NCBI GenBank assembly: GCA_026986775.1
Contig: JALSNX010000001.1
Location: 1 to 64,000, forward strand
Source: Caldifarciminota bacterium
GTDB lineage: Bacteria; Hydrothermota; Hydrothermia; UBA1063; CAJXJZ01
Direction: 5' to 3'
Length of the DNA stretch: 64,000 nucleotides
Below are positions 37,315-53,519 of this stretch, in pieces. The position numbers and the translations under genes were made by a program. The first letter of the stretch is position 1. The number at the start of each line of letters is the position of its first letter. The notes under the pieces are model-generated. The model was not told the origin of the DNA. It saw only the letters and a program-made list of their open reading frames with translations, and ran no database searches.

Positions 37315-37321
37315 ATTGGCC

Positions 37322-37483
37322 TCATTCCACTTTACAATCAATAGCAACCATTACACCATCCATATATCCTGCAAGTAGAGACTCTGTGATTCGACAACCA
37401 TAGGATGTAGTGCAATCGCAGATGGTCTTCTCCTCCCCACCACCCTCTATAGGAGTTATTAAAACTATCATATTGCTTTCCAT
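37322..37483 (-). CDS. Second Cys-rich RiPP precursor candidate (not in ORF track)
   Basis: 53 codons from ATG 37483 (an ATG at 37471 is possible); an AGGGAG lies eight bases upstream. The peptide begins hydrophobic (MIVLITPIE), then has GGGEEK, then the core TICDCTTSYGC and later LLAGYMDG, ending IDCKVE. It shares CxC-x(4-5)-C-x(8)-GYxxG with the precursor at 40747. The distance from the third aligned Cys to the GY is identical in the two. It overlaps the propeller-like gene by 16 bases and precedes the ABC exporter by seven. Homology to precursor 1, position and the ribosome site make it a real gene rather than chance; length alone would not. Confidence 0.78.
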   Translation of the reverse strand: MESNMIVLITPIEGGGEEKTICDCTTSYGCRITESLLAGYMDGVMVAIDCKVE

Positions 37484-38310
37484 ATCTCTATCTCCCTTTT
37501 TGCATTCCTGAAATTAAACCTTACAAAGTAAAGGGATTTTCCTTTTATCATCACAGGATAAACGGGTGTATCAAATTTAAATACTTTATCTATACCCATT
37601 ATCCTACCATTTTTAGTTTTTAAAAGAAAAATCGCGGTTTCTGGTGTCTTTTGATCTGATGGTTTGTTTGACACAGACCTGTAATAAAATCCCCAGGCAA
37701 CCATATTGGTATTTTCACCTCTAAAAGAGGAAATGCCCACTATTCCTCCCTTCAGAAACTTTCCTCTACCCGATTCAGCTATACCATAAGAGGGTAAATA
37801 CCTTTTCAGGGAATCCAATAATATTGTCCTTCTCTTTCTTGATAAAATATCATAATAAAGCGCCCTGAAATGAGAAGGTGAAATAAGATAAAACCCTATG
37901 TAAGAAGGCGTTATACTCAGATAATCTCCTTTAAAATATAAGGTATCAATTTTTTGAGATAAAAGCCATAGTAAATAGACTGTATCCCGAGTTAAGAAAG
38001 CGACCCAATTACCACCTGCAGTAACATCAAGAATATGGCGTTTATCAAGTAACCGGTTATTATTGAGATAAACACCATCATGTCTTAAATAAAAATAAAA
38101 AGTATCAATCACGAAAAATAGTCCGCGCATTTTTATGGGTTTCACAGTATCAACAATCACAGAGTCGCTTTCATATTCAATCTTAAGAACATAGTCTGAT
38201 GTAATAAAATAAGAATTGTCATTTGCAAAATACCACCTTTTGACGGTATTAAACATCCCAATATCCAGTTTTACATTGAATGTAAGTAATGTAAATAAAA
38301 GCATTTTCAT
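37468..38310 (-). CDS. Exported beta-propeller-like protein B
   Basis: 280 residues with a short N-terminal hydrophobic signal (MLLFTLLTFNV). The remainder consists of repeated strands with aspartates and aromatics (FVIDTFYFYLRHDGVYL, NWVAFLTRDTVYLLW, YLSITPSYIGFYLI), consistent with a small propeller. It has no enzyme motif. It lies two bases after protein A and overlaps precursor 2, so it belongs to the RiPP operon. It may bind, process or provide immunity to the peptide in the periplasm. These roles are guesses. Confidence 0.6.
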   Translation of the reverse strand: MKMLLFTLLTFNVKLDIGMFNTVKRWYFANDNSYFITSDYVLKIEYESDSVIVDTVKPIKMRGLFFVIDTFYFYLRHDGVYLNNNRLLDKRHILDVTAGGNWVAFLTRDTVYLLWLLSQKIDTLYFKGDYLSITPSYIGFYLISPSHFRALYYDILSRKRRTILLDSLKRYLPSYGIAESGRGKFLKGGIVGISSFRGENTNMVAWGFYYRSVSNKPSDQKTPETAIFLLKTKNGRIMGIDKVFKFDTPVYPVMIKGKSLYFVRFNFRNAKREIEIWKAI

Positions 38311-38312
38311 AT

Positions 38313-39221
38313 CTACTTTATCCCAAGATCAAAAGGAGATATTTTTACCAATTCATGACCTTCATTCGTGATATAAAACATGTTTTCATCTGGCTCATAT
38401 TTCAGCAATCTGGCAGAGCGCGGGAATCTTATAACTTTTTTAATTTTCAAACTATTCCTATCCACTAAAACCAATACGTTCTTTTCTTCCTTTTTAAGGT
38501 CTCTTCTCTGAAGAATATAATAGTTTTTATATGTTAAAATTCCGGCATATGATGATACAGGATAGAAAGCTATGCTTCTGCCCCTTTCTTTTCTCATAAC
38601 CTCTGCTCTTAAGTCCCTTGCTTTTTTTATGTGAAAAAGAGACAAAAATTTCCCATTTTTAAGAGAAAAGGTCAAAAGAATCATTTTTCTTGCTTCAAAA
38701 AATATCGCTGTATCATTATGAGATGTTGCAATCCACATATCAGAAGGTGAAAAATCTTTGTATTCAACTTCTTTTCTCGTAATCTTCTTATCATTGAGTG
38801 ATATGTGAACTATATATCCCTGACCCAAAAGTAAAAGATATCCATTTTCTCCACTCATGGTATAAGGTGATTCCTTTAAAAGAAACTGGCCAAGATACTT
38901 ACCCATGAAGTTGTAATAGTTGATTTTCTTTGCAATTTTTTCATATATATATATTATCGTGTCGCTGCAAACGAGGGAATTGGTTCCAAAAAATGAGATT
39001 TCCTCAGGTGCATTCCCCAGTGGTATGTAACCGGAATCCACATCGGAAGTTGCCATATTGTATCTATATAGTATTGCGTTTTTAGAGCCAACTGGCATTG
39101 AAAGAAAGACAATACTTTTATTACATGATGCTGTGTAAGAATAAGTGGGTAATGAATATCCAACTTTTACCTCTCCCTTAAGAGAAATAATCAGAAGAAT
39201 AAAGACAAAAGACTTAACCAT
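38313..39221 (-). CDS. Exported beta-propeller-like protein A
   Basis: I start at ATG 39221 (302 residues, MVKSFVFILLIISLKG) because AAAGGAGG precedes it and a signal peptide results; the track adds 13 residues. The body has repeated four-strand units, such as SIVFLSMPVGSKNAILYRYN and LLKYEPDENMFYITNEG, like NHL/6-bladed propellers. It overlaps the radical SAM gene by eight bases. No catalytic motif is visible. It resembles protein B in style but not closely in sequence. Confidence 0.65.
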   Translation of the reverse strand: MVKSFVFILLIISLKGEVKVGYSLPTYSYTASCNKSIVFLSMPVGSKNAILYRYNMATSDVDSGYIPLGNAPEEISFFGTNSLVCSDTIIYIYEKIAKKINYYNFMGKYLGQFLLKESPYTMSGENGYLLLLGQGYIVHISLNDKKITRKEVEYKDFSPSDMWIATSHNDTAIFFEARKMILLTFSLKNGKFLSLFHIKKARDLRAEVMRKERGRSIAFYPVSSYAGILTYKNYYILQRRDLKKEEKNVLVLVDRNSLKIKKVIRFPRSARLLKYEPDENMFYITNEGHELVKISPFDLGIK

Positions 39222-40689
39222 CCTGCCTGCCTCCTTTTCCTGCAATATAGGATAAATCAAAGAATCCGGGATTAATTTCCTTCACTTTTGCGTAAACACC
39301 AAGCAGTTTTTCCCAGTATTTCATCTTTGATTTACAGGTTCTTCTAAATAAATCTTCCCGTAATTTTTCATTTCTATATATATGAGCATAACATATATTA
39401 CAAAGCCTTGCTATTGGACAGTCAAGACAATTTTTATTACGCAGGCTTTCTACTTCTTGAACTATTTCATTAATTCTGTCAAAATTAAATCCGTTAAATA
39501 TATCTCCTATTTTTAAGTGGTAATGAACTTTCTCACACGGGTATATACTTCCATCAGGTGCTATAAATGTCCTGTCATGTCCAGGGATACAGAAACCCCC
39601 TATCAGAAATTCCTCTGAGAGTCTGCCCTTTGGACTATTGTGGTAAATAAAAAGGTCTTTGTATAAGAATTGATACAGAAAATCATCAACGATACCATCT
39701 GGAATATCCTCTTTAAGTGTTTTATTTACAAGTTCTTCAATCTGTCTATCAAATTCCTCAATTTCCTCCTTCGTGAAATTTTTATAAAAATCAGTATCAT
39801 ATGGGTCAACCAGAGAAACAAAAACAGGAGCGTGTGTTTTGCATTCCCACAAGTTAATAAAACGAGAGATTGATTTTAAATCAAATGGAGGCGCAAGTGT
39901 TATAATATATCCCACCTTTCTTTCAAAATAGTCTGGAAATTCTTCCTTGAATTTGCATAAATTTCTTTTTATTAACTGGAATGTGGGCTTCTGAGCTCTT
40001 GTGACCCTGTATCTGTCGTGTATTGATTGAGGGCCATCTATGCTAACATTTAAACTGAAATTATGCTCTTTAAGAAATCTACGAATTTTACCATTTGCAA
40101 GTAATGTGCCATTGGTAGTAAGAGAGAATCTAATGGGTTTATCCCTGAAAAGGTTTTCGGCCAAGTTGACCGCATACCTTATATTGTCAAAAGCAAGCAA
40201 AGGCTCTCCTCCATAAAATCCAAGAGAGACACGTTCGCTGAGTCCTGAATGGGATTTAAAAAACAAAAGAGCCTTTTCTATAATCTTTTTGTCCATATAA
40301 ACACCAGTATTCACCCTTTCCCCTTCATAAATCCCGGAAAACTTACAGTATTTACAGGCGAGGTTACAATCCCATGTTATATCCAGAATCATATGAGAGA
40401 GTTTATTTTCCAGATGCTCTCTGATTTCTGTAGGGGAATGGGGAAATGCTGCTCTTTTAAAATAAGGTCTTTTTAGACTGAAGAGTCCAATTTTTCTGTT
40501 ATACTCATCTATTTCCTTTAATGCAAGTTTAATCTTTTCCACAGGATAACTGGATGTCAATTCTTTTATAATGTCATCATCACTTTTACCCTGTATACGA
40601 TAATGCAATATGTCCCTTACTACCTCTGGGACTTTTACTATCATATTTGTCAGGGGAGAATATATATAATCACCTTCCAGAAATAGCAT
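39214..40689 (-). CDS. Radical SAM/SPASM peptide maturase with N-terminal RRE-like domain
   Basis: Start ATG 40689 (491 residues) is chosen because GGAGGTGG sits five bases before it; the track start is in the upstream hairpin. Residues 1-70 (YIYSPLTNMIVKVPEVVRD, KSDDDIIKELTSSYPVEKI) resemble a PqqD-type RiPP recognition element. The radical SAM site is WDCNLACKYC (CxxxCxxC). A full SPASM region follows: C-x12-G-x4-C in CIPGHDRTFIAPDGSIYPC, then CLDCPIARLCNIC and a final TCKSKMKYW. Such enzymes install thioether or C-C crosslinks on Cys-containing precursors and bind two auxiliary 4Fe-4S clusters. The neighbouring Cys-rich peptides are the expected substrates. Confidence 0.92.
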   Translation of the reverse strand: MLFLEGDYIYSPLTNMIVKVPEVVRDILHYRIQGKSDDDIIKELTSSYPVEKIKLALKEIDEYNRKIGLFSLKRPYFKRAAFPHSPTEIREHLENKLSHMILDITWDCNLACKYCKFSGIYEGERVNTGVYMDKKIIEKALLFFKSHSGLSERVSLGFYGGEPLLAFDNIRYAVNLAENLFRDKPIRFSLTTNGTLLANGKIRRFLKEHNFSLNVSIDGPQSIHDRYRVTRAQKPTFQLIKRNLCKFKEEFPDYFERKVGYIITLAPPFDLKSISRFINLWECKTHAPVFVSLVDPYDTDFYKNFTKEEIEEFDRQIEELVNKTLKEDIPDGIVDDFLYQFLYKDLFIYHNSPKGRLSEEFLIGGFCIPGHDRTFIAPDGSIYPCEKVHYHLKIGDIFNGFNFDRINEIVQEVESLRNKNCLDCPIARLCNICYAHIYRNEKLREDLFRRTCKSKMKYWEKLLGVYAKVKEINPGFFDLSYIAGKGGRQDG

Positions 40690-40703
40690 ATCCACCTCCA
40701 TGC

Positions 40704-40740
40704 AAAGCACATGGGGTTCCAAAGGAACCCCATGTGCTTT
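40704..40740. terminator. 17-bp perfect hairpin between precursor and maturase
   Basis: AAAGCACATGGGGTTCC and its exact complement surround a three-base loop. It starts seven bases after the precursor stop and ends just before the maturase ribosome site. No T-run follows on the minus strand, so it should act as a partial terminator or as a 3' stabiliser that lets precursor mRNA outnumber maturase mRNA. Confidence 0.8.
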
Positions 40741-40746
40741 CAATTT

Positions 40747-40893
40747 TTATCTATCCAATGTTCCATCTGCCAGGCCATTAGCATATCCCATCATATAGTC
40801 CCAGTCAGTTTGACAGTTGGGAGAGTAGCATGCGCATACACATGCTTTTGGTGGGATATCACTGGTGAGCATATTTGTTATTATGTTTATCAT
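40747..40893 (-). CDS. Cys-rich RiPP precursor peptide (not in ORF track)
   Basis: 48 residues from ATG 40893, preceded by AAAAAGGAGGTG. The N-terminal 16 residues (MINIITNMLTSDIPPK) look like a leader. The core has four cysteines in ACVCACYSPNC, then TDWDYMMGYANGLADG. It is the first gene after a strong promoter, immediately before the radical SAM maturase. There is no GG cleavage motif. The second precursor at 37322 shares the CxC...C...GYxxG pattern. The modification is predicted to be Cys-derived thioethers, as in sactipeptides or ranthipeptides; that is family-based inference. Confidence 0.85.
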   Translation of the reverse strand: MINIITNMLTSDIPPKACVCACYSPNCQTDWDYMMGYANGLADGTLDR

Positions 40894-40917
40894 AGCACAC
40901 CTCCTTTTTATTTTTTG

Positions 40918-40935
40918 CATCACCTCGAGGTGATG
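40918..40935. promoter_or_regulatory. Perfect 18-bp palindrome at the RiPP transcription start
   Basis: CATCACCTCGAGGTGATG is fully self-complementary and begins five bases after the -10 on the minus strand, so it spans or follows +1. It could be an operator or a 5' mRNA hairpin. The 48.3 kb promoter has CACCCCGGGGTG in the matching place. Confidence 0.75.
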
Positions 40936-40940
40936 TTGAT

Positions 40941-40971
40941 ATTATACAGGGGGGGGGGGATGTTTTGTCAA
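40941..40971 (-). promoter_or_regulatory. RiPP operon promoter with C11 spacer tract
   Basis: On the minus strand TTGACA (40971-40966) and TATAAT (40946-40941) are separated by 19 bp containing eleven consecutive Cs (G run at 40949-40959). Both hexamers are perfect. The 19-bp spacer is longer than optimal. The ten-gene operon from 40893 to 27828 has no other obvious strong promoter. Confidence 0.82.
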
Positions 40972-41183
40972 GAAGTAGTATTAATTTAAACATTAGCTAA
41001 AGTTTAAAATGCTTGTGTTACATGCTCGCTTGATTGCTTAATCATAAAAATTATTTACCTATCTAATGCTATTTCCTTTGACTTATCCGATTACAATCCA
41101 CTACCACCGTAATATAAGAAAACTCTTAAAGAACCAAAATAATCAAGAAATTAACGCTGTTCATAAGCGCATTATTCAGGATC
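40972..41183. promoter_or_regulatory. Upstream region of the RiPP promoter
   Basis: This gap between the -35 box and the acyl-CoA synthetase stop holds a TGATTGCTTAATCA dyad (41031-41044). Its counterpart TGATTAAGTTATCA occurs upstream of the 48.3 kb promoter at a similar distance. A T/A-rich segment next to the -35 is also shared. I see no convincing gene here; the 41066 and 40711 plus-strand ORFs are shadows. Confidence 0.55.
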
Positions 41184-42863
41184 CTACCCTGTATAAAGAT
41201 ACCTTTTTATTTTATTTGTCGGGGTTTTTTCAAAGGGTTCGGGGTGTTCATAGAGTTCGTAAATCTGCGAATATCTCGGAAGACGCTCGTTTGTTTTCTC
41301 TCTTATGTCTCTCAGTATCTCTTTTACTATTCTCTCACGGTTTTCCTCTGAATGCCCCTCAAGTTTATCTTTTAAAAGGTCATAGTTTAAATAAACTTTT
41401 CCAACAATCTTACCGTCCTTTTCATAAACTATGGACTCAAGAACATACACATGCATGTTTAACTTCTCTTCTATTATCTCGGGGAATATATTTTCACCAC
41501 TCGGACCGAGTATCATGTTCTTTGAACGCCCTTTTATGTAAATAAAATTATCCTCATCAACATAACCAAGGTCACCTGTCTTAAACCAGCCGTCTTCACT
41601 CAAAACTTCACGGGTGAGTTCCATGTTTTTATAATACCCTTTCATTACATTGGGGCCTCTCACATATATCTCTCCAATACCTGTTTCAGGTTCAGGGTCT
41701 TTGATTTTCACCTCAACCCATTCTACAATCCTGCCGCTTGCCCTTTTCTTTGTCTCTTTAACAAGAGAGCCACTTATTAAGGGCGCTGTCTCTGTAAGGC
41801 CGTAACCTGTTGCATAGGGGAATTTGATTTTATAATAGAAATCCTCAATATCCTCTGAAAAGGGGGCACCCCCAAGTGTCATTGCCCGAAGCTCCCCACC
41901 AAAGAAATCAATAAGGTTTTTCCTTATCTTGTTTAAAATAACTTTTCTTAAAGGAGACTTCAATAAAATCTTCATCTTTTTTGTCTCAAGCAGGGGCTGG
42001 ATTTTCATCTTGTAAATCTTTTCAAGTATCATGGGAACAGATGCAATTACCGTTGGTTTTACGGATTCTGCCGCCTTCTGTATGAGCCTCGGAACCGGTT
42101 TTTTACCTAAATATGTTATATGTGCTCCCACCGAAAGGGGATACAAAAGCCCGAGAGTAAACTCGTAGGCATGGGCAAGTGGCAGGATGGATAAAAGCCT
42201 GTCGTTCTGGTTCATATCAAAGATTTTTGCAACCTGAATAACATTGGTTACGATGTTTTTGTGGGTTAGCATGACACCTTTTGAATTTCCCGTTGTGCCC
42301 GATGTATAAATGATTGCCGCAAGGTCATCTTCCTCCACGCATTTACCGTAAAGTCCGACTTTTTCGGCAAGGTCGTATATGGCTTCCTTTGCCTTATCGT
42401 AGAGTTTGAATATGGGGCTTACTTCAAGTTCCGAGTCATCGGGTTCAAAATTATCAAGGGTAATAATAAATCTGACATTTCCGAAATCATAGCCCGAAAG
42501 TCGCATAAGTTGTGCCCGTGTTGCAAAAAGCCCTATGGATTCCGAATGTTTCAAGATGTTTGACACATCTTCGGGGTGAAAATCCGCAAGTATAGGGACT
42601 ATAACACCGCCCAAAAACACTGTGGAGAGATATGCAATAACCCAGTTTGGCGAGTTTTCACCTATCAATGCTATTTTGTCGCCTTTAACAACACCTTTTT
42701 CCCTCAAAATGCCACTTATTTCTGTAATCCGCCTGTGAAGTTCCCTGTACGTAATGGTTTCACCACCGAAAATGGACAGAGCGTTTCTGTCGGGATGGAG
42801 TTTAACTGTTGTTTCTATGAGTTTCGGGACAACCCTTTTGTCTATTCTTTTCCACGCATCCAT
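41184..42863 (-). CDS. Long-chain acyl-CoA synthetase-like AMP-forming ligase
   Basis: From ATG 42863 (MDAWKRIDKRVV) the protein has 559 residues; the track adds 23 N-terminal residues without a ribosome site. The P-loop is IIYTSGTTGNSKGVMLTHKN, A5-like ATGYGLTETAPLISG, and A7-like GWFKTGDLGYVDEDNFIYIKGRSKNMI. The C-terminal domain ends PTNKIKRYLY with the catalytic Lys. It activates fatty acids to acyl-CoA in the cytoplasm or at the membrane. It is monocistronic and divergent from the T9SS cargo gene. Confidence 0.88.
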   Translation of the reverse strand: MDAWKRIDKRVVPKLIETTVKLHPDRNALSIFGGETITYRELHRRITEISGILREKGVVKGDKIALIGENSPNWVIAYLSTVFLGGVIVPILADFHPEDVSNILKHSESIGLFATRAQLMRLSGYDFGNVRFIITLDNFEPDDSELEVSPIFKLYDKAKEAIYDLAEKVGLYGKCVEEDDLAAIIYTSGTTGNSKGVMLTHKNIVTNVIQVAKIFDMNQNDRLLSILPLAHAYEFTLGLLYPLSVGAHITYLGKKPVPRLIQKAAESVKPTVIASVPMILEKIYKMKIQPLLETKKMKILLKSPLRKVILNKIRKNLIDFFGGELRAMTLGGAPFSEDIEDFYYKIKFPYATGYGLTETAPLISGSLVKETKKRASGRIVEWVEVKIKDPEPETGIGEIYVRGPNVMKGYYKNMELTREVLSEDGWFKTGDLGYVDEDNFIYIKGRSKNMILGPSGENIFPEIIEEKLNMHVYVLESIVYEKDGKIVGKVYLNYDLLKDKLEGHSEENRERIVKEILRDIREKTNERLPRYSQIYELYEHPEPFEKTPTNKIKRYLYTG

Positions 42864-42922
42864 CTTTAGAATTTTAAAGTGAATAATCTGTTTTTCAAAT
42901 AAATGAAACTTTGAGATTAAAT

Positions 42923-42951
42923 TTGACAGCATTTTATATTTATACTATAAT
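42923..42951 (+). promoter_or_regulatory. Consensus promoter for T9SS cargo gene
   Basis: TTGACA (42923-42928), 17 bp, TATAAT (42946-42951): an exact match to the housekeeping consensus. Transcription from about 42958 gives an 80-nt leader with AGGAGG before ATG 43037. Confidence 0.85.
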
Positions 42952-43036
42952 TAATCAACAGTGTGTAACCTTTTAGATGGTGCAAATTTTGCCGGTATTG
43001 TTGGAATGCTTTTCAGGAAATAGCAGGAGGTTTAAC

Positions 43037-44563
43037 ATGGTAAACCTGAAAAAATTAAGAAACATGGTGTATTCAGTATGTTCCGTCTCAATAATGTTTT
43101 CATTTAATGTAGTTCTATTAGCCAGAACAAATACAATCTATGCTCCTCATACCAATGTTATGGACATCAATCTTCTTGATGGTAATGAGTTTAATATGTA
43201 TATCTCTAACTATGGGAAATTTGGACAATCACCAGAGGGAGGAGCCGGAGCATGGTGGCCATCCAATAGAAGTTCGGAAACATATATATTTGGAGCAGGA
43301 CCGTGGATAGGAGCCATAACAAAGGATGGAGACACAGTTGTTACCTTATTCTATAACCCTAATTCAGGTCAATCTGAGGGTGTACCAGCGCACATAGCAG
43401 ATTCAGATGACCTTTATAACTACAGCGCAGCACTCAGAGACCCCTACGATAGAGTCCATATATATGGAAAAACCACAGACCAGTATGAGTGGCCTCTTAA
43501 GACATCCAGTGGTGAGGACAGTGTTGTTTCCGACATGGATTCTTATGAGGCGTTTATGGACATAGCCCCAGAATATCAGGACTCCACCTCTAAACCCCTT
43601 GGACTTTATGTTGTAGAGCAAACCTATCAATGGGCAGTACCGTATCTTGATAACATACTTTTCAATATTTACGAGATTGAAAATATCAGTAGTGATACAC
43701 TTTTTGATGTTTACGCCGGGATAACATATGATTTTGATGTGGGTAATGAATCCGCTCAGAATGCCAACGACCTTGTAAGGTTTTACAGAAGTTATACATT
43801 TGCAGATGATACAGCCCCAACACTTTTAAACCTTGCATATCAGTATCAGACAGAACCGGAACCTGGATGGGTCGGCGTTGATGGGAATGGATTACCCGGG
43901 GTTATAGGAAGTGTATTTCTTGACTCTCCCCTTGCAACAGATACGGTAATTGTGTGGGACACCATAGGAACTCACGTGGGGCCCGATACAATCTATCCCG
44001 GAGAGCCACTTGGTATGACAGCATTTAAAATTTTCACCGTACAGATAGATCCGTGGACTGATCCCGAAAGATACTCTTTGATGGCAGGATATGATCCTCC
44101 AAGTGCAGGCGGTGCGTACAATCCTTACATGGATGATTGGTATGGACCCGGAGATAAGAGATTTATTCAGGTATCAGGTCCATTTACAATGGCTCCAGGA
44201 CAGAAAATAAGACTTGTATCTGCTATTGTAATGGCTGAAGATACACTTAATATACTCTATGAAGCAAAGAAGGCTTATATATTGTACGAAAACAATTTTT
44301 CTGATGTCTCCGAGAAAAACCATAATCGTGCAGATTGTCCAGAACTTAGAGTTATATTGACCACAAATGGAGTGTTGTTCACAGCCAATTCAAACACAGC
44401 AAAACCGATAATGGTGTCAATTTACGATGCCTGTGGCAGATTGGTAAAAGAGGCTAAAATAAAACGCAAATACTACTTTAAGCCTGAAAAAAGCGGGGTT
44501 TACTTTTACATGGTGAGAAACACCGCAATTAAGGAGCATGGTCAATTTATAGTGATACATTAG
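43037..44563 (+). CDS. Secreted protein with T9SS type A sorting domain
   Basis: Start ATG 43037 (508 residues) follows GCAGGAGG; the earlier track start at 42977 has none. The signal is VCSVSIMFSFNVVLLA. The body is rich in Gly, Asp and aromatics (GGAGAWWPSNRSS, IFGAGPWIGAI) with no recognised enzyme motif. The last 75 residues (PIMVSIYDACGRLVKEA, YFKPEKSGVYFYMVR) fit a T9SS C-terminal domain. It is probably a surface protein. PorX is encoded two genes downstream. Confidence 0.75.
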   Translation: MVNLKKLRNMVYSVCSVSIMFSFNVVLLARTNTIYAPHTNVMDINLLDGNEFNMYISNYGKFGQSPEGGAGAWWPSNRSSETYIFGAGPWIGAITKDGDTVVTLFYNPNSGQSEGVPAHIADSDDLYNYSAALRDPYDRVHIYGKTTDQYEWPLKTSSGEDSVVSDMDSYEAFMDIAPEYQDSTSKPLGLYVVEQTYQWAVPYLDNILFNIYEIENISSDTLFDVYAGITYDFDVGNESAQNANDLVRFYRSYTFADDTAPTLLNLAYQYQTEPEPGWVGVDGNGLPGVIGSVFLDSPLATDTVIVWDTIGTHVGPDTIYPGEPLGMTAFKIFTVQIDPWTDPERYSLMAGYDPPSAGGAYNPYMDDWYGPGDKRFIQVSGPFTMAPGQKIRLVSAIVMAEDTLNILYEAKKAYILYENNFSDVSEKNHNRADCPELRVILTTNGVLFTANSNTAKPIMVSIYDACGRLVKEAKIKRKYYFKPEKSGVYFYMVRNTAIKEHGQFIVIH

Positions 44564-44616
44564 TAATATGGGCCAGCTGTTTTTTTGCACATTAAAATAT
44601 ATCGTGCCACTTTTCC

Positions 44617-44645
44617 TTGACAATTCAGGGATAAGGCTTTATTAT
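44617..44645 (+). promoter_or_regulatory. Promoter giving a near-leaderless mRNA
   Basis: TTGACA (44617-44622), 17 bp and TATTAT (44640-44645). The ATG at 44653 lies seven bases after the -10, where transcription should begin, and there is no ribosome site between them. The transcript is therefore probably leaderless. A TATAAT three bases further right would give a 20-bp spacer and is less likely. Confidence 0.6.
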
Positions 44646-44652
44646 AATCATT

Positions 44653-45216
44653 ATGAAAGGCATTATAAAATTTCTGGGGCTTTTATTAGTTGCTACAATT
44701 GCTTATGGTGGTATAGTCATAAACGAAATAAATTTCTATCCGGAGACATGGGTTGAACTTTATAACTCTTCTCCTTATGATGTATCCCTTAATGGATACT
44801 ACCTTGTAACTCCTGATGGGGAATATCCCCTTGACAATGTAACCATCAAAGCCAACTCCTATGTAATTTTATCTAAAGAACGCCTTTTTTCGGATAAGGA
44901 CTTTCAAATCAATGTAGAGCTATCAAATTCCGGTGGTTTTATTGTTATACTGAAGAACAACAGTATCATTGATTTTGTGAACTGGGGGATGCTTGCTGAG
45001 GAATGGAGAAATTCATACCCTTATCTCTGGGACAATGCACCACTTGCCAATATTAACCTGTCAAGAGAACCTGATGGCACTGATACAGATTCCCCTTCAG
45101 ATTTTAAAAGCACTGAGACGCCCACACCCCTTTCACCCAATGCTCCTATGGGGCTTGACCCTATTTCATGGAGCAGAATAAAAGCTCTCTTCCGTGACGC
45201 ACATAAAAGAATGTAA
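44653..45216 (+). CDS. Lamin-tail-domain (LTD) exported protein
   Basis: 187 residues, signal peptide IIKFLGLLLVATIAYG, then an LTD fold: IVINEINFYPETWVELYNSSPYDVSLNGYYL and SYVILSKE, GGFIVILKNN, DFVNWG. Such domains occur on secreted, often cell-surface, proteins. A Pro/Thr-rich tail leads to a C terminus (RIKALFRDAHKRM) that is not a typical T9SS domain. The stop overlaps the PorX start by one base. Confidence 0.75.
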   Translation: MKGIIKFLGLLLVATIAYGGIVINEINFYPETWVELYNSSPYDVSLNGYYLVTPDGEYPLDNVTIKANSYVILSKERLFSDKDFQINVELSNSGGFIVILKNNSIIDFVNWGMLAEEWRNSYPYLWDNAPLANINLSREPDGTDTDSPSDFKSTETPTPLSPNAPMGLDPISWSRIKALFRDAHKRM

Positions 45217-46658
45217 TGCGTATCCTCTGGGTTGACGACGAGATAGAGACTTTAAAGCCTCATAAAATATTCCTTGAAAGACAGGGGTGTTCTGTTGATA
45301 CCTCTGACCACCCGGAAGAGGCACTTTCTCTTTTGAAAAACAACAAATACGACCTCGTGCTTGTGGACTATAGAATGCCCTCCTTAAATGGCAACGAATT
45401 TGTTCGGATGGCAAAGAAAATAGCACCAAACATTCGCTATGTTCTGGTTACAATGGTTCAGGATACTGATATAATGGAAGAGGCTATCTCTGAGGATGTT
45501 TTTGATTACATCGTAAAGCCAGTGAAACCAACCCAGATACTTGCAGTGATAAAAAGGCTTGAGAAGGATGAAATTTACAGAGCACAAAAGGGTAAAGAAC
45601 TCACAAGGCTCTATCAAAAACTCTCTGAGATTCCACGCGATCAGGAAGGATGGCTGAAAATAGCGGACCTTATAAGCACAAAAGACCCACAGGACGAATT
45701 CCTTGCAGGAGAGATGGAAGAACTTAACAATGAATTTGCAGAGTGGATAGAAAGAAACTATGTAGAGCTACTTAACTCAAATATTACCCGCTCCGACAAT
45801 GTTTTCAAAAAACATGTAATTCCCCTTATTAAAAAAGGTGAAAAAGTAGCTTTCTTTGTACTTGACTGTGTCAAACTTTCACAATTTGTTTCCCTCGTAA
45901 AGGAACTGCCGTCACATGTAAGGCCTGAATTAAATCTTTACTACTCAATACTGCCCACATCCACCATATATGCAAGAAACAGCATTTTTGCCGGAAGACT
46001 GCCTGCTGAAATTCAGAAACTCCATCCTGAATGGTTGAAAAACAACCTTCATGAAAAAGAACTTTTAAAGGAACAACTTTCAAGGGAACATCTTCCTACC
46101 AATTTCAGCTTCTACAGGTTAAACGCACCGGAAGATACTCAAAATATTAAACCGGGTCCATTTCTTATAGCAGGCACAATCAATTTTACCGACCTTATTG
46201 CACACATAAGAGGCAGGGTTGAGCCACTAAAACAGATTGCTAAAACAGAGCAGGAATTCAAAGATATGATTCATTTTCTTATTAAGAAAAGCGGCTTTTT
46301 ACAGAAAATTTCCGAACTTGTGCAGGAAGGATATACAGTATTTCTCACATCTGACCATGGCTGGGTGCAGGCAGATAAACCATCAATTGTTCACGGCGGT
46401 AATGAATTAACTGAGTCTTTGAGATTCAAATTTGGTATATCTTTAAGGGTGGAAAATCCTCGTCATGCAGTAATCTTTGAAAGGCCACGTGAGATAGGAC
46501 TTCCAAAGGGAATGGGAAGACTTGCACTCTGCAGGGACTACTACTTCTTCGTATATCCTTCAGACCCTCATAGATTTGCAAAGCGATATAGAGGGGAGAT
46601 AATGCACGGTGGTGTAACAATTGACGAGATGATAATCCCCATTATAAAGATATATTAA
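45216..46658 (+). CDS. porX: PorX-like response regulator with PglZ domain
   Basis: 480 residues. The receiver domain (1-120) has WVDDE, the phospho-acceptor in LVLVDYRMP, and YIVKPVKP. Residues about 200-480 are a PglZ/alkaline-phosphatase-like domain, with VLDCVKLSQF and FLTSDHGWVQADKPSIVHGG as metal-site motifs. This two-domain order is that of PorX, which controls and contacts the type 9 secretion system in Bacteroidota and hydrolyses oligonucleotides. No PorY kinase is nearby. It supports a T9SS in this organism along with two cargo proteins in the window. Confidence 0.88.
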   Translation: MRILWVDDEIETLKPHKIFLERQGCSVDTSDHPEEALSLLKNNKYDLVLVDYRMPSLNGNEFVRMAKKIAPNIRYVLVTMVQDTDIMEEAISEDVFDYIVKPVKPTQILAVIKRLEKDEIYRAQKGKELTRLYQKLSEIPRDQEGWLKIADLISTKDPQDEFLAGEMEELNNEFAEWIERNYVELLNSNITRSDNVFKKHVIPLIKKGEKVAFFVLDCVKLSQFVSLVKELPSHVRPELNLYYSILPTSTIYARNSIFAGRLPAEIQKLHPEWLKNNLHEKELLKEQLSREHLPTNFSFYRLNAPEDTQNIKPGPFLIAGTINFTDLIAHIRGRVEPLKQIAKTEQEFKDMIHFLIKKSGFLQKISELVQEGYTVFLTSDHGWVQADKPSIVHGGNELTESLRFKFGISLRVENPRHAVIFERPREIGLPKGMGRLALCRDYYFFVYPSDPHRFAKRYRGEIMHGGVTIDEMIIPIIKIY

Positions 46659-47293
46659 TCAAGTTCTGCCATACTCACAGCATAAATATCAATCCTTTCA
46701 GCACCCTTTTCGTATAGCATCCTTGCAAGTTCAACAGTGGTTGCACCGGTGGTAATAACATCGTCTATAATGGCCAATTTTTTACCTTTCAGAGAACCAC
46801 TTACCTTAAAAGCACCCTTTATATTTAAAATCCTCTCCTTTCGTGAGAGTTTTGTCTGAGACCGTGTATTTTTAACCCTCTTTACTTTTCTGAAAATGGG
46901 AATACCCGTCAGTTTTGAGACCTCTTTTGCTATCTCCTCAGCCTGATTAAAGCCCCGCCTCCACTTTCTCAAAAAATGAAGTGGCACAGGCAAAAGAAAA
47001 TCATACTCATATTCTTTTATCAGGGCAGCAAGATGGTCAGCAAAAAACGGCACAGCAAAAAAGATACCTCTGTATTTTATGTCCTCTATCATCTCTTTAA
47101 TAGTACCCTTGTAAATAAAAGGTGCCTGAATTACAATCTGGGGATTTTTTATAAAAAGTCTTCTCTCATTTTTGTATATAGAGTTAAACTTTTCCATACA
47201 ATCGGAACATACCGCCTTATCCGAAAGATTATCACACACATAGCATGTGGATGGTAAAAACGTGTTCACAATATTCTTAACAAGGTCAGGCAT
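46655..47293 (-). CDS. ComF-like phosphoribosyltransferase
   Basis: 212 residues. The N terminus has a zinc ribbon (CYVCDN, AVCSDC); the C-terminal PRTase motif is LAIIDDVITTGATTVELAR. ComFC-type proteins take part in DNA uptake and related processes. GFNQAEEIAKEVSKLTG is a conserved segment. It overlaps Lgt by eight bases and converges with porX. Confidence 0.85.
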   Translation of the reverse strand: MPDLVKNIVNTFLPSTCYVCDNLSDKAVCSDCMEKFNSIYKNERRLFIKNPQIVIQAPFIYKGTIKEMIEDIKYRGIFFAVPFFADHLAALIKEYEYDFLLPVPLHFLRKWRRGFNQAEEIAKEVSKLTGIPIFRKVKRVKNTRSQTKLSRKERILNIKGAFKVSGSLKGKKLAIIDDVITTGATTVELARMLYEKGAERIDIYAVSMAELD

Positions 47294-48062
47294 TTTGCTT
47301 CTTTGAATTTCTGTAAAGGTAAAACATAATAAAAAGAGCAGCGAGCATGAGGCCTATGGAAATCCACTGATTCACATCAAAGGGGCCATAGTATTTGTAT
47401 GTTTCATAGTACCTGTAATAGTCCACTATGAACCTGACAAATGGCCCTAAGATCATGTACAAAAGAAACACAAAACCATCAAAGGGCTTTTTCTTCTGAA
47501 CAGCGAGGAGAATAAAGAATACGATAAGGTTACCAAAGGACTCGTATAGCTGCGTGGGATGTATGGGGATATTGCCGAAAACCGCAAATGCCTCGGAGCC
47601 CGGCTTAAAAACCGTGCAGAAAGGGCCATGACAGGCGTGACCAAAACAGCAACCATTAAAGAAGCACCCCCATCTTCCAATAAACATGCCAATGGCAAAG
47701 CCCGGTGCAGCCCAGTCTCCAAACTTCCACACCGGTATTTTATGCTTTTTCAGGTAATAAATGGCAGCAGGAATACCGAACACAACACCGCCGAAAAACA
47801 CCAATCCACCGTGCCATATGGCGAACATCTCACCTAAATTGTTCTTAAACTCATGGAAATTGTAAAGAATATAAAATACCCTTGCACCTATAATTGAGGC
47901 TACGATAACCCAGAAACCAAGGTCATAAATCAAATCCCTTTTTATGCCGTGTTTTTTTGCCTGTTGATAGGTAATCTCCATACCAGCTAAAAAACCCAGT
48001 AAAACAAGAACACCCCATGTTCTTACCTCAAGGCCTCCGATTCTAAATAATACTGGATGCAT
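47286..48062 (-). CDS. lgt: Prolipoprotein diacylglyceryl transferase
   Basis: 258 residues, about seven membrane helices. Family motifs GRWGCFFNGCCFG and HPTQLYES are present, along with LGFLAGMEITYQQA. It adds diacylglycerol to lipobox cysteines, which fits the lipoproteins in this window. An AAAAAGGAG ribosome site precedes the ATG at 48062. Confidence 0.93.
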   Translation of the reverse strand: MHPVLFRIGGLEVRTWGVLVLLGFLAGMEITYQQAKKHGIKRDLIYDLGFWVIVASIIGARVFYILYNFHEFKNNLGEMFAIWHGGLVFFGGVVFGIPAAIYYLKKHKIPVWKFGDWAAPGFAIGMFIGRWGCFFNGCCFGHACHGPFCTVFKPGSEAFAVFGNIPIHPTQLYESFGNLIVFFILLAVQKKKPFDGFVFLLYMILGPFVRFIVDYYRYYETYKYYGPFDVNQWISIGLMLAALFIMFYLYRNSKKQNA

Positions 48063-48294
48063 ATTCTTACTCCTTTTTAGCTTATATATTATGTTTCAGC
48101 CCACACGGTTTTACAAACATTATTATATAAAGTGTCTAAAGTTCACGGTGTTTTATATCTTTCGTATTTCAGCGAATTTCATCCGGGACATCAACGAAAG
48201 GTTCATAAAACTTCAAGTCAATTTATGATTAAGTTATCAAACAAAAATTTCAACGAATTTATGACTTTATATCTATTTTAAATTAAACAACTTC
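48063..48294. promoter_or_regulatory. Intergenic region upstream of the 48.3 kb cassette
   Basis: The 307-base gap between lgt and the next gene has no ORF of note. It holds two copies of TTTCRRCGAATTT (near 48167 and 48248) and a related ATCAACGAAA between them. The dyad TGATTAAGTTATCA (48226-48239) matches the box upstream of the RiPP promoter. These may be regulator sites. Lgt must also be transcribed from here. Confidence 0.5.
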
Positions 48295-48323
48295 TTGACA
48301 AAACATCCCCCCCCCTGTATAAT
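48295..48323 (+). promoter_or_regulatory. Second poly-C spacer promoter (C9)
   Basis: TTGACA (48295-48300), a 17-bp spacer with nine Cs (48307-48315), and TATAAT (48318-48323). The sequence from CTTCTTGACA through the -10 and the AAAAAGGAGGTGT ribosome site is nearly identical to the RiPP promoter on the opposite strand. Confidence 0.85.
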
Positions 48324-48331
48324 ACCTATAC

Positions 48332-48343
48332 CACCCCGGGGTG
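48332..48343. promoter_or_regulatory. Palindrome CACCCCGGGGTG at transcription start
   Basis: A perfect 12-bp palindrome begins eight bases after the -10. Its counterpart at 40918-40935 contains CACCTCGAGGTG. The two differ at two symmetric positions that keep the pairing. Confidence 0.7.
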
Positions 48344-48370
48344 AAACGGAAAACAAAAAGGAGGTGTATC

Positions 48371-49225
48371 ATGCTAAAAAACAGGACTGATCATATCATC
48401 ATTGGTGCTTGTGGGCATGCTTGCATGTAATCACATTAAGTCTTTAAGTACTGATTATGCTGAGAGTGATACTGTATATTTCAGGGTTGGTCTCCCTTTT
48501 ATACACGGGTCAACAAGAGAAATGACTCATTATTTTCCATTTGGCGAACAAAATTTTGAAAATTTAGACACATTAAAAATCCATATAGAAGACATCAACG
48601 TTTTGAATAACAGGGTCAAGACACTAAAATCAGGTGAAATGTGCATACAATTGATTTTGAAGTAAATTCTAAAATTGTTCATGTGGTTTATACCAAACAA
48701 ACTTTTGGCGACACTGTATGCGCTGAAATGAGATATATGGACTCTCTGCAGAATCTGGATTGGAACATATCCGTTTATGTTTGGTATGAGAAAGGTCTTC
48801 CCCATGAGAAGGGCATAATAATTCTAAATGGTCAAAAAGCAACAGAGTTACATTTTGAAGCCAATATGATCGATACACAAAATATGATACTCAAATACCA
48901 ATTTCCTTATTACAATTATACAGCTCTTGACACTATAGAAATCTTCAATGTTCAGAATCCACAAATAACTGAGAGATTGTATGAGTTTTGCAGTTCTCAC
49001 AGTGAATCTATTAATTATTTGAAAAAAGTAGATCCTTATGTAATAGATTATGTGGTCAATGACATGATTAAAAATGCCTCAAGCTCAAAAAGAATTAGTT
49101 CTAAATGGTTAAGCTGGGCTGGTGGCGTAATCACCGGTATCGCAACGGGGTATATAGTAGGTCCAGTGGCAGGTACAATCGCAGGCGCAGTTTATGGGGC
49201 AATAAACACATATGTGAATCAATAA
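48371..49225 (+). pseudogene. Frameshifted lipoprotein gene with glycine-zipper C terminus
   Basis: The ATG at 48371 has an ideal ribosome site, but its frame stops after 19 codons. Removing one A from the AAAAAA run at 48376-48381 gives M-L-K-T-G-L-I-I-S-S-L then VLVGMLAC, a clean lipoprotein signal leading into the 48402 ORF. A second shift near 48636 then joins the 48641 ORF; one extra base gives KSGENVHTIDFEV. The restored product has about 284 residues. Its end (GGVITGIATGYIVGPVAG) is a Gly-zipper membrane segment like those in pore-forming peptides. It may be a decaying gene, assembly error, or slippage-controlled. No family is recognised. Confidence 0.65.
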
Positions 49226-49244: not shown

Positions 49245-49748
49245 ATGGTAAACACAGCAATTATGCTGTTATCCATTCCACTAATTAGTGGTGGAATTTA
49301 TATAACTTACAGGAAACTAAACAAATTTGAGAATATTCTGAACCTGATTGGAAGTGTGCTGGGCGGCACACTGCTCGTCCTTTTTGCATTCTGGAGTTTG
49401 CATATAAAGGACCTTCAGAACAGGGCGTTGATTGTGTCTTTTGTAATGTTCCTCAGCAGTATGTGGGCTCTGGGTGTAATATCTCAGCTGACAGAGAAAA
49501 AATTGAAATTACAAGCAGTAGAGGTAATTCTTTCGGTTGCTTATATCCCAGCATTTCTAATAATTGATAGCACGTGGATGTCAATGCTTGGAAGCGCCCT
49601 TTCAGTGAGTATATTCCTTTTTTTCGCTGGGGTTATGGATATTCTCCAACCTGCTTTTAAATCAAAAAACATGGGGATTTTGAAGGGAGTTTTCTGGATA
49701 TGGTTTTTCATTCTCGGGATAATATTTACTCAGGCTCTTAAGCCTTAG
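49245..49748 (+). CDS. Integral membrane protein of unknown function
   Basis: 167 residues with about five hydrophobic helices and almost no soluble loops (MLLSIPLISGGIYITY, LNLIGSVLGGTLLVLFAF, and others). SD AAGGAGGAG precedes the ATG. It lies 19 bases after the frameshifted lipoprotein gene. An immunity or transport accessory role is possible given the neighbouring ABC exporter, but nothing in the sequence proves it. Confidence 0.65.
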   Translation: MVNTAIMLLSIPLISGGIYITYRKLNKFENILNLIGSVLGGTLLVLFAFWSLHIKDLQNRALIVSFVMFLSSMWALGVISQLTEKKLKLQAVEVILSVAYIPAFLIIDSTWMSMLGSALSVSIFLFFAGVMDILQPAFKSKNMGILKGVFWIWFFILGIIFTQALKP

Positions 49749-49892: not shown

Positions 49893-51554
49893 GTGGTGGA
49901 AAAAAACAATGAAAATTTTCTAAAAGTATTCTACAAAAAGTATATCCTTACTAAAAAACATTTGATTTTGTTATTATCAATTTTAGTGTTTTCCCTTATT
50001 TCTTCAATACTACAGATTCTAATCCCCTATTTTTTAAAAGGGATTATGGATTTTGCAATCGCTGGAAAAAAGAATTTAATGTATAATGCCATCTGGTTAT
50101 TTGGAATAGCCTGGATTTTGGCAGTGATTTCGGCTTATATATATGGTTATTGTATGGAAATAATTAAAGTTGATATAAAAGGAGTTTTAAGAAAAAATCT
50201 TTTAAGAAAATTACATACATTGCTGTATTCGGAGGTGAATAAACACACACAGGGTGCCTATTTACAGATAATACTTGATGATGTAGACAAAATAGACCCT
50301 CTTATTATAGATTCATATCTAAACTTGGGAACCATGGGATTCATGGCACTTGGTGCATTGATATTAATGATTAAGATGTCATGGATTCTGACAATCGTGA
50401 GCGTGCTTCCAGTGCCATTGTATATGGTGTTAATGGTAATATACCAAAAGAAAGCAATCTCACTTACCCAAAAAAGGCAGAGAGACTATCAAAATGTAAT
50501 TGCATTTATTGACGAAAGTATAGGAAATACATATATAGTTAGAAATTTTGGGATATTGCACCAGATACTTGACTTATTCACAACTTTTTATAATAAATAT
50601 GTAAAAAGTTACATGGACCTTTTCAGGGTTAACTTCTTTTATAGTTCGGTTTTAAACACCTTTCTTTCAATAGGTGTGCAATTTTTTATCATTTTATTTG
50701 GAGCAATCCTGATTCTAAAAGGTAAACTGACGGCAGGAATTGTTTTGAGTTTTATGATATATGTTGAGTATGTAAGACAACCTCTGGATTATATTTTAAG
50801 ATTCTCAACCCAGGTAGAGCCCGCAAAAGTATCCCTTAAAAGGATATTTCAAATTCTAAATAGAGAAAGCGTTTATGAACCCAAAACACACTCACTATCT
50901 TATTTAAAACGTCTTCCATCCGATGTTCCCGCTGTAGAAATTAAGAATCTTTACTTTTCTTATGAAAATCATCCGGTGATAAATAATTTAAGCCTTACGC
51001 TGAAGCAGGGGAAATGGCTTTGTATTATCGGCGAAAGTGGAAGGGGTAAGAGCACTCTCTTAAATATTCTCTTAAAGCACTACAGTGTACCTGACGGGAA
51101 AGTTTTCCTATTGGGAGAAGATATAAATAAAATGGAAGTAAATGATATTCTGAGTTTAATAACATTGATTGAGCAGGAACCCCAATTTTTTAGCAGTATG
51201 AGCATTTATGAAAACCTCACTTTGGGACAGGATATACCATGGGAAAAAGTGGAAGAAATAGCCGCAAAAATAGGACTAAAAAATCTGCTAAATAAAATTT
51301 CCAAAAATAGAAAAATATTACTCAAAAATTCGGGTCTATCCGGCGGCGAAAAAAAACGACTCTCCCTTTTACGGGGTATGCTGCGTAATACCCCTATCGT
51401 TATTATAGATGAGCCAACAGCCTTTCTGGATAAAGACAATGCTATTAGAATTATGTCAAAATTAAAGGAATTCTTGAAAGGTAAAACAGTGATTATAACA
51501 ACCCACGATGAGAAAATTCTGAAATTGTGTGACGAAAAAATCTTTATTGAATAG
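49893..51554 (+). CDS. ABC exporter, fused permease/ATPase
   Basis: 553 residues, GTG start after AAAGGAGGTGAT (the out-of-frame ATG at 49891 gives only a few codons). Six helices precede an ATPase with IIGESGRGKSTLLNIL, the signature SGLSGGEKKRLSLLRG, IVIIDEPTAFLD and TTHDEK. No peptidase domain. It is diverged from the exporter at 35599 but has the same layout. It is the transport part of the 48.3 kb cassette. Substrate unknown. Confidence 0.87.
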   Translation: MVEKNNENFLKVFYKKYILTKKHLILLLSILVFSLISSILQILIPYFLKGIMDFAIAGKKNLMYNAIWLFGIAWILAVISAYIYGYCMEIIKVDIKGVLRKNLLRKLHTLLYSEVNKHTQGAYLQIILDDVDKIDPLIIDSYLNLGTMGFMALGALILMIKMSWILTIVSVLPVPLYMVLMVIYQKKAISLTQKRQRDYQNVIAFIDESIGNTYIVRNFGILHQILDLFTTFYNKYVKSYMDLFRVNFFYSSVLNTFLSIGVQFFIILFGAILILKGKLTAGIVLSFMIYVEYVRQPLDYILRFSTQVEPAKVSLKRIFQILNRESVYEPKTHSLSYLKRLPSDVPAVEIKNLYFSYENHPVINNLSLTLKQGKWLCIIGESGRGKSTLLNILLKHYSVPDGKVFLLGEDINKMEVNDILSLITLIEQEPQFFSSMSIYENLTLGQDIPWEKVEEIAAKIGLKNLLNKISKNRKILLKNSGLSGGEKKRLSLLRGMLRNTPIVIIDEPTAFLDKDNAIRIMSKLKEFLKGKTVIITTHDEKILKLCDEKIFIE

Positions 51555-51572
51555 TAAAAACAGGAGGTGATA

Positions 51573-53519
51573 ATGTTTGTCACTATTATTGTATCCATGC
51601 TGCTTCAACCTGCGAAGATAAAATCTCCTGCTGATATATACATGGTAAAAAATCAAGTAAAACTTGTTGAAATAATGCCGGATACTTCATCTTCACCAAA
51701 GGATTCAACTCTTGTATCGGCAGGCTATACAAAAAAAGAACTTGTGTTTTATTTTAAGAACTATCAGAAGGGCGCTCTCAGTGCTACCATAAAAAAGCGC
51801 GATGCAGAGGAAATCAGTCAGGGAGAAGATGCGGTGTTTATCATACTTGCACCAAATGGTAAAGGTAGAAACGCATATTATATTGTAGTTAATCCTCTGG
51901 GCACTGTATATGACAAAATGCTTACCCAACAGGGAATTGTTGAATGGGATGGAGATATACGAACAAAGGCAAATAAAACCGCCTATGGATGGGAATGCAC
52001 TGTGGAAATTCCCTTTTCAAGTATTACATACTCAGAAGATTCCTGGGGTATCCAGATACTGAGAAATATTATATCTAATTCCGAACTCCAGGCACTTTAC
52101 ATGTCAAATAATGTAGGCTCTTTATACGACCTTGCTGATTTTAAAATAGACTTTAATTACATTGAAAAACGCACAAATGTTGCGCTTTTTATGATACCTT
52201 CCATTAGAGTTGAAAGGATATATGACAGCGCCCGGACACACTGGGATAATAAGGTGAAATTAGGTGGGACCATGAGATTTAAAAAAGGGAACAATACGGT
52301 AATGGATATCACAGGACTTCCCGATTACTCGGAGCTTCCTCTTGACTTTAAAAGGTTTTCCCTGGGCAGATTGCCCATTTCCTACCCTGAAAAGAGGCCG
52401 TTTTTTATAGAGGGAAGGGGATATTATAAATTGCCCAAACTTCTTGTAAGGACAAGGAACATAGAAAACATTGAATACGGTGGAAAATTCTACACAGCAG
52501 GGAAATCCAGCGATTTTGTAATGTATTATCTAAAAGACACTATTCTGAACGACATAATATTCAGCAGGTTTAAGTATCATCTTTCCGATGTATCGGAGTT
52601 GGGGGCCTTCAGTATGCTTAACAGGTTGAATTATAATGTAGTTTCATTTGATGCCTCACACACTATCAAAAAATACGGTATTGACCTTTCTGCACAATGG
52701 GCATCTATTCTGAATACTGATGCACAACTTAAATACTTCAAAATAAACAAAAATGCAAACACCGGTATTTCAGGGTCTTTTTCCTACACTGATATTGACA
52801 CGGGCTTTATATCTCCTCTAAATACCGTTGAATACAATTTTGAGGGCATCAGGAAGTTCGCCTTGAATGCACAGTTCCTTAAATACTTTAAATTGAAAGA
52901 GAGGAATATTATTTTCAATGTTTCTGGATATACAAATCACTTAATCAATAAATTTGACAGGTCCATCATTCACAGGGTTTACAGCGGAAATATGACGACC
53001 TACTTGCTGCCTTACGGTGTCGCTTTACTCCTTGAGGAGGGAGAGTTAAATTATCTTTCTTTGCCAGACAGGTCTTACAGACTGGCCGGTGGAGGATTAA
53101 TTTACTATCTCTCTTCATGGAAACAGGCACGTCTTACAGTATTATATGGCAATTATCTCGGTGGACATCTCTTCAATCCAGAGTTTACTGCAAACATCTC
53201 CCCATTTGGTTTTAATACTGGAATGGATGTTTTCTTTGTAAAAAGCCCCTTTGACAGCCTTTATACGATTAATTTTTACGGAGAACACCCTACACCTTTA
53301 AAACACTTTTTGATAAAGCCCTCTCTTATTTATACCAACAATTTACTTTTAGGTCAGAAAGATATTGACATGAATATTGTTCTTCTGTATGAACCTGATT
53401 ATCTTAAGGGCATCTACCTTGCATATCAAAGAACCATGAGAAAAACCGGAAATTCTTCATGGTCATTATCTTCTGGAAAAATCATCTTTAAAATTAAATG
53501 GGGACTAAAGATTCTGTGA
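51573..53519 (+). CDS. DUF5916-like outer-membrane protein with CBM9-like N terminus
   Basis: I choose ATG 51573 (648 residues), with AGGAGGTGAT upstream; the track start GTG 51567 lies within that ribosome site. The N-terminal 170 residues resemble CBM9-type domains (TAYGWECTVEIPFSSITYSEDSWGIQILRN). The rest is amphipathic beta-strand (RPFFIEGRGYYKL, YGGKFYTAG), the layout of the DUF5916 family of predicted outer-membrane barrels. It closes the cassette and may be an outer-membrane exit or receptor. This is inference. Confidence 0.72.
   Translation: MFVTIIVSMLLQPAKIKSPADIYMVKNQVKLVEIMPDTSSSPKDSTLVSAGYTKKELVFYFKNYQKGALSATIKKRDAEEISQGEDAVFIILAPNGKGRNAYYIVVNPLGTVYDKMLTQQGIVEWDGDIRTKANKTAYGWECTVEIPFSSITYSEDSWGIQILRNIISNSELQALYMSNNVGSLYDLADFKIDFNYIEKRTNVALFMIPSIRVERIYDSARTHWDNKVKLGGTMRFKKGNNTVMDITGLPDYSELPLDFKRFSLGRLPISYPEKRPFFIEGRGYYKLPKLLVRTRNIENIEYGGKFYTAGKSSDFVMYYLKDTILNDIIFSRFKYHLSDVSELGAFSMLNRLNYNVVSFDASHTIKKYGIDLSAQWASILNTDAQLKYFKINKNANTGISGSFSYTDIDTGFISPLNTVEYNFEGIRKFALNAQFLKYFKLKERNIIFNVSGYTNHLINKFDRSIIHRVYSGNMTTYLLPYGVALLLEEGELNYLSLPDRSYRLAGGGLIYYLSSWKQARLTVLYGNYLGGHLFNPEFTANISPFGFNTGMDVFFVKSPFDSLYTINFYGEHPTPLKHFLIKPSLIYTNNLLLGQKDIDMNIVLLYEPDYLKGIYLAYQRTMRKTGNSSWSLSSGKIIFKIKWGLKIL

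Follow-up and report, generated by a model that had tools for sequence, protein, structure and literature searches.

Most known cases of phase variation through homopolymer slippage in promoter spacers concern surface antigens of animal pathogens. In the porA promoter of Neisseria, for instance, the length of the homopolymer sets transcription, and the fim promoters of Bordetella need, in addition, the activator BvgA. A variable poly-C tract has been reported in the promoter of N. meningitidis opc (PMC3960869). In Bordetella, one extra base accompanied a 3.8-fold lower level of the fimX transcript (PMC1891110), and an Agg- mutant had lost one C from its fim3 promoter (PMC10172299). Changes in repeat length may also be combined with a repressor, as reported for NadR at N. 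meningitidis nadA (PMC2791445). Here we consider two promoters with poly-C spacers in a stretch of 64,000 nucleotides (the window; positions 1 to 64,000 of contig JALSNX010000001.1) from a genome of candidate division WOR-3 (G000; 2.18 Mb, 30 contigs), together with three sister genomes of the same genus (G001 to G003). One of the two promoters precedes an operon for a ribosomally synthesized and post-translationally modified peptide (RiPP), and the other a cassette whose first gene is lipoprotein-like.

A sequence-only reading of the window had likened these promoters to those of Neisseria porA and opc. The comparison is apt, and Bordetella fim2, fim3 and fimX provide a further precedent. As in opc and porA, transcription would depend on the length of a homopolymer located in the promoter region. 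However, opc and porA are single surface-protein genes of a pathogen, whereas the WOR-3 set brings together about 17 loci of an uncultured phylum, the majority of them RiPP operons, and is characterized by a common dyad downstream of strong consensus boxes. The fim genes resemble it in that several paralogous promoters contain long cytosine tracts, which are polymorphic between strains, but the WOR-3 promoters differ from them in their consensus -35 boxes and in their targets, which are operons for RiPPs and secreted proteins. The nadA system is similar in joining repeat-length change to a repressor (a putative one in WOR-3); by contrast, the nadA repeats change the spacing of distal promoter elements and not the gap between -35 and -10, and the WOR-3 dyad is placed at the transcript start. 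A search of the open-access literature, which was not exhaustive, gave no clear precedent for phase-variable bacteriocin or RiPP promoters. The WOR-3 promoters are best read as an instance of a known mechanism, found in a new setting and acting on an unusual class of targets.

A genus-wide set of promoters with homopolymer spacers

Both window promoters have perfect boxes separated by pure C tracts, and the earlier description of C11 and C9 tracts in spacers of 19 and 17 bp was exact to the base. The RiPP promoter, on the minus strand, is ordered TTGACA-AAACAT-C11-TG-TATAAT and the cassette promoter, on the plus strand, TTGACA-AAACAT-C9-TG-TATAAT, the number of Cs being the sole difference between the boxes. 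The window contains no other C or G runs of at least 8 (6 overlapping matches, a count reached in 0 of 100 shuffles, for an expectation of 1.5). No other homopolymer, whichever the base, is as long as these tracts in this sequence of 38% GC, where A/T runs do not exceed 8.

A pattern search of the whole G000 genome for TTGACA-N-polyC-N-TATAAT returned 14 exact sites, against none for the reversed control pattern. When near-exact sites are included, given here as contig:position (C1:201270, whose -10 box reads TATACT; C2:27651, whose tract is interrupted; C27:8, truncated at a contig end), the set consists of about 17 promoters with spacer tracts of C7 to C12, two of which are the window pair. 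Every C tract of at least 9 in this genome sits in such a promoter, and the six C8 runs found elsewhere look like coding sequence. Tracts that are longer than chance would give and that lie in promoters, between the -35 and -10 boxes, are what spacer-type phase variation predicts. Among the 147 genomes of the phylum, poly-C promoters were found in 4 of 4 within the genus and in 3 of 143 outside it. Outside the genus, G075 and G105 (family f28) carry poly-C promoters that are paralogous, differ in their tracts and precede genes for secreted proteins. Additionally, a scan of public genome contigs gave seven matches, of which five belong to WOR-3 sister genomes, one to a Microgenomates metagenome-assembled genome (MAG) and one to an Eubacteriales MAG; no match was found in the viral contigs searched. 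The set is a real, strongly non-random and genus-wide feature.

The reading that we favour, with a probability of roughly 0.74, is that these promoters form a multi-locus regulon of slipped-strand, spacer-type phase variation for RiPPs and secreted proteins. In this model, a homopolymer (C7 to C12 and, once, T19) makes up most of the spacer that separates the consensus -35 and -10 boxes, and slipped-strand mispairing at replication would add or remove single bases in it. The spacer would thereby shift through and off the 17-bp optimum, and each downstream operon would undergo heritable switching or tuning of its own, independently of the others. The targets of most members are operons for RiPP biosynthesis and export together with secreted lipoproteins or proteases, and individual cells would probably switch the peptide operons on and off at random. 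The purpose may be bet-hedging over the peptides, immunity functions and exported proteins that each cell carries, and a CACC-N4-GGTG dyad over the transcript start would add a common, protein-mediated control. Phase variation had already been suggested for the window pair. This part of the suggestion gains from the genome- and genus-wide set, the dispersion of spacers around the 17-bp norm, the differing tracts of related loci, the concentration at RiPP operons and the T19 case, while the expression states assigned to the two promoters fare worse (see below).

Spacer dispersion and tract differences between related loci

Ordinary promoters, defined here as consensus TTGACA/TATAAT pairs without poly-C from three genomes of the genus, show a sharp peak at a 17-bp spacer (78 of 120). 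The spacers of poly-C promoters, by contrast, range from 14 to 21 bp, and 6 of 23 measure 17 bp (P = 9e-4 against ordinary promoters), or 4 of 21 once near-identical copies are removed (P = 2e-4). In the sister species, none of 8 poly-C promoters has a 17-bp spacer, compared with 42 of 66 ordinary ones. The contrast is only suggestive, and not significant, in G000 on its own (P = 0.08), and reaches significance when the sister species are pooled with it. Such dispersion is the expected outcome of a free drift in tract length, and compensation between tract and flank lengths is weak (r = -0.24).

These lengths also bear on the proposal that the C tract serves as a fixed element, that is, a binding site or DNA structure for a regulator of the regulon, without any slippage device. 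This proposal, which we consider unlikely, would fit the fact that, on the non-template strand, nearly all tracts consist of C, the recurrent TTGACAAAACAT flank, the one promoter that is C-rich without a pure homopolymer and the regulon-like dyad common to the set. However, tract and flank lengths vary and spacing is not constant, several members have no dyad, and at one RiPP promoter C is replaced by T19, which suggests that length, and not C itself, is what matters.

Tracts were compared between related loci in one genome for each of four species, and between paralogues of one genome, and their lengths differ in both cases. For instance, the locus for precursors containing SCSCGGICI at C18:57239 of G000 has C11 (18-bp spacer), compared with C8 (14 bp) at the CSCGGVCI locus on C297 of G002; a further related locus, on C57 of G001, has C7 (15 bp). 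The promoters of SLHKD(N/G)CC precursors have C8 (16 bp) at C22:86075 of G000 and C10 (19 bp) on C4 of G003, and those of two maturases that are 49% identical have C11 (19 bp) at C27:153064 of G000 and C9 (16 bp) on C61 of G003. Within G000, C8:505 and C27:8 carry tracts of 8 and 11 Cs in promoters that otherwise match. An assembly overlap between these two sites was rejected, since these are paralogues that precede different genes.

RiPP operons and other targets

G000 codes for 11 radical S-adenosylmethionine (SAM) maturases with a SPASM domain (TIGR04085), and 9 of them lie directly behind a C-rich spacer promoter, including the one at C18:18601, where the tract is interrupted (CCCCCTACCC). 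A tenth (C9:120089) follows the promoter TTGA-T19-GATT-TATAAT. The T19 run of this promoter (C9:121462-121480, locus L165) is the sole exception in 243 kb of G000 where A/T runs otherwise reach 8 at most, and its operon contains a precursor-like open reading frame (ORF), MKYIYRPKHIDYNKRAILPICGCFLTRCDEIS. Only the maturase at C4:4014 has neither a C-rich nor a T19 spacer. Maturases of the sister genomes with upstream sequence available mostly show the same arrangement, and the sole class III lanthionine synthetase of G000 above cut-off (on C2) has a poly-C spacer too. Many of these promoters are followed by short Cys-containing precursor ORFs. Other members of the set precede cassettes of a lipoprotein and a small membrane protein, a C25 protease with a sorting tail, a matrixin-like protease and other exported proteins.

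An extension of the favoured reading, which we see as evenly balanced, is that the RiPP repertoire constitutes a phase-variable arsenal, in which every operon is governed by a homopolymer-spaced promoter of its own, C and T are interchangeable and one operator is shared; a clonal population would then mix weapons and immunities, with the peptides acting as antimicrobials. If true, stochastic switching would also govern competition between free-living uncultured bacteria, and it would explain why RiPP clusters may seem silent when a single genome is considered. Furthermore, tract length in metagenome reads would become a testable marker of weapon expression in natural populations.

The promoters could also be interpreted as homologous modules that mainly serve as recombination anchors for swaps of RiPP and lipoprotein cassettes, the tracts being by-products. 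Stretches of 100-300 bp around promoters are common to loci with different genes (73-98%); between G002 and G003, 92% identity over 186 bp stops at the promoter and the downstream genes differ; and 3 of the about 17 G000 sites are less than 600 bp from a contig end. This interpretation leaves unexplained the homopolymer nature of the spacer, the T19 case and the unrelated poly-C promoters of family f28, and we consider it very unlikely.

Several observations weigh against slippage as the function of the tracts. The interrupted tract at C18:18601 should slip little. Decay is seen at two loci that follow poly-C promoters, namely the first gene of the window cassette and the maturase at C27:153064 (locus L098, about 151.7-153.1 kb of C27), which has three in-frame TAA stops in an operon behind the C11 promoter with the 19-bp spacer. 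In addition, a recent 8.26-kb duplication of a RiPP operon (C4, 172-197 kb; loci L090 and L091), 99.7% identical and gap-free, has C8 in both copies, which argues that tracts of 8, at least, are not ultra-fast. The exact counts of the C9 to C12 tracts of G000 are provisional and may be off by one or so. Homopolymers are error-prone, and the G000 lengths might be assembly errors, or the tracts might simply be neutral. We regard this as the least probable of the alternatives, since the presence of tracts, if not their exact length, recurs in independently assembled sister MAGs, and a neutral feature would not be enriched in spacers and at RiPP operons. Moreover, ORFs of at least 150 amino acids account for 94% of the window, and frequent indel errors are therefore unlikely.

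The downstream dyad and the window operons

The dyad, with the core CACC-N4-GGTG, is present in about 11 members of the set, at a fixed distance of 8 nucleotides past TATAAT. A search of G000 for TATAAT-N-CACC-N-GGTG gave 15 matches, 10 to 11 of them from this set, depending on whether C18:18601 is counted. The centre of the dyad is self-complementary (TCGA, CCGG, TGCA, ACATGT, GCGC) in all but a CTGG variant. From its sequence, the dyad looks like a shared DNA operator, where binding of a repressor would provide a second, protein-mediated layer of control. Control by an RNA hairpin in the 5′ untranslated region was considered and rejected, as two of the four leaders tested do not fold the dyad, including that with the perfect dyad of the cassette; this inconsistent folding and the self-complementary centre make a DNA operator the better reading. 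A search of the window against Rfam found no RNA family. A MerR-type promoter with a 19-bp spacer was also discarded, as there is no dyad in the spacer; instead, the spacers are homopolymeric, of 14-21 bp, and the dyad is downstream of -10.

Table 1. Promoter elements and downstream genes of the window
Feature	Position	Strand	Remarks
-35 box TTGACA, RiPP operon promoter	40966..40971	-	read base by base
C11 tract inside the -35/-10 spacer (19 bp total)	40949..40959	-	
-10 box TATAAT, RiPP operon promoter	40941..40946	-	
18-bp perfect dyad CATCACCTCGAGGTGATG, probable operator at transcript start	40918..40935	-	just past -10 of the RiPP promoter
48-amino-acid RiPP precursor MINIITNMLTSDIPPKACVCACYSPNCQTDWDYMMGYANGLADGTLDR	40747..40893	-	ribosome site AAAAAGGAGGTG upstream; listed ORF begins at upstream GTG
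Radical SAM/SPASM RiPP maturase	39214..40743	-	Pfam PF04055, PF13186; TIGR04085 above cut-off
-35 box TTGACA, cassette promoter	48295..48300	+	read base by base
C9 tract inside the spacer (17 bp total)	48307..48315	+	
-10 box TATAAT, cassette promoter	48318..48323	+	
12-bp perfect dyad CACCCCGGGGTG, probable operator	48332..48343	+	cassette promoter
First cassette gene, lipoprotein-like	48371..49225	+	two frame changes: near start, near 48640
167-amino-acid multi-pass membrane protein, cassette gene 2	49245..49748	+	ORF; without Pfam match
ATP-binding cassette (ABC) exporter, membrane and ATPase domains	49893..51554	+	PF00664, PF00005
DUF5916-like protein, probably outer membrane	51567..53519	+	PF19313, slightly under cut-off

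The C11 promoter leads to the precursor, the maturase and, more distally, an ABC exporter (Table 1). The best NCBIfam match of this maturase is TIGR04068 (Cys-rich peptide maturase), under the equivalog cut-off. Between the maturase and the exporter there is a second precursor-like ORF, MESNMIVLITPIEGGGEEKTICDCTTSYGCRITESLLAGYMDGVMVAIDCKVE (37320-37490, minus strand), whose GYMDG motif resembles GYANG of the first precursor. The sequence-only reading had proposed that, in this genome, the cassette would be on and the RiPP operon weak. This call, which was made from spacer length alone, is shaky because the first gene of the cassette carries two frameshifts, and the shared dyad suggests a second control layer.

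The C-terminal part of this frame-broken gene is homologous to an intact lipoprotein of 276 amino acids behind a C10 promoter at C4:187799. At both loci, the lipoprotein has a glycine-rich C-terminal segment (WAGGVITGIATGYIVGPVAGTIAGAVYGAINTYVNQ) and is followed by a small multi-pass membrane protein; the two could be a toxin/immunity or self-protection pair. DUF5916-like proteins recur beside RiPP ABC exporters, in the window and at L090:10342-12378, with similar genes in L093, L097, L098 and L106, and this probably outer-membrane protein could be the exit for peptides through the outer membrane. Finally, the two poly-C promoters of the window belong to a 163-bp inverted repeat (40886-41048 and 48222-48378; 75% identical) that flanks 7.3 kb, and an inversion between its copies would exchange the promoters of the RiPP operon and the cassette.

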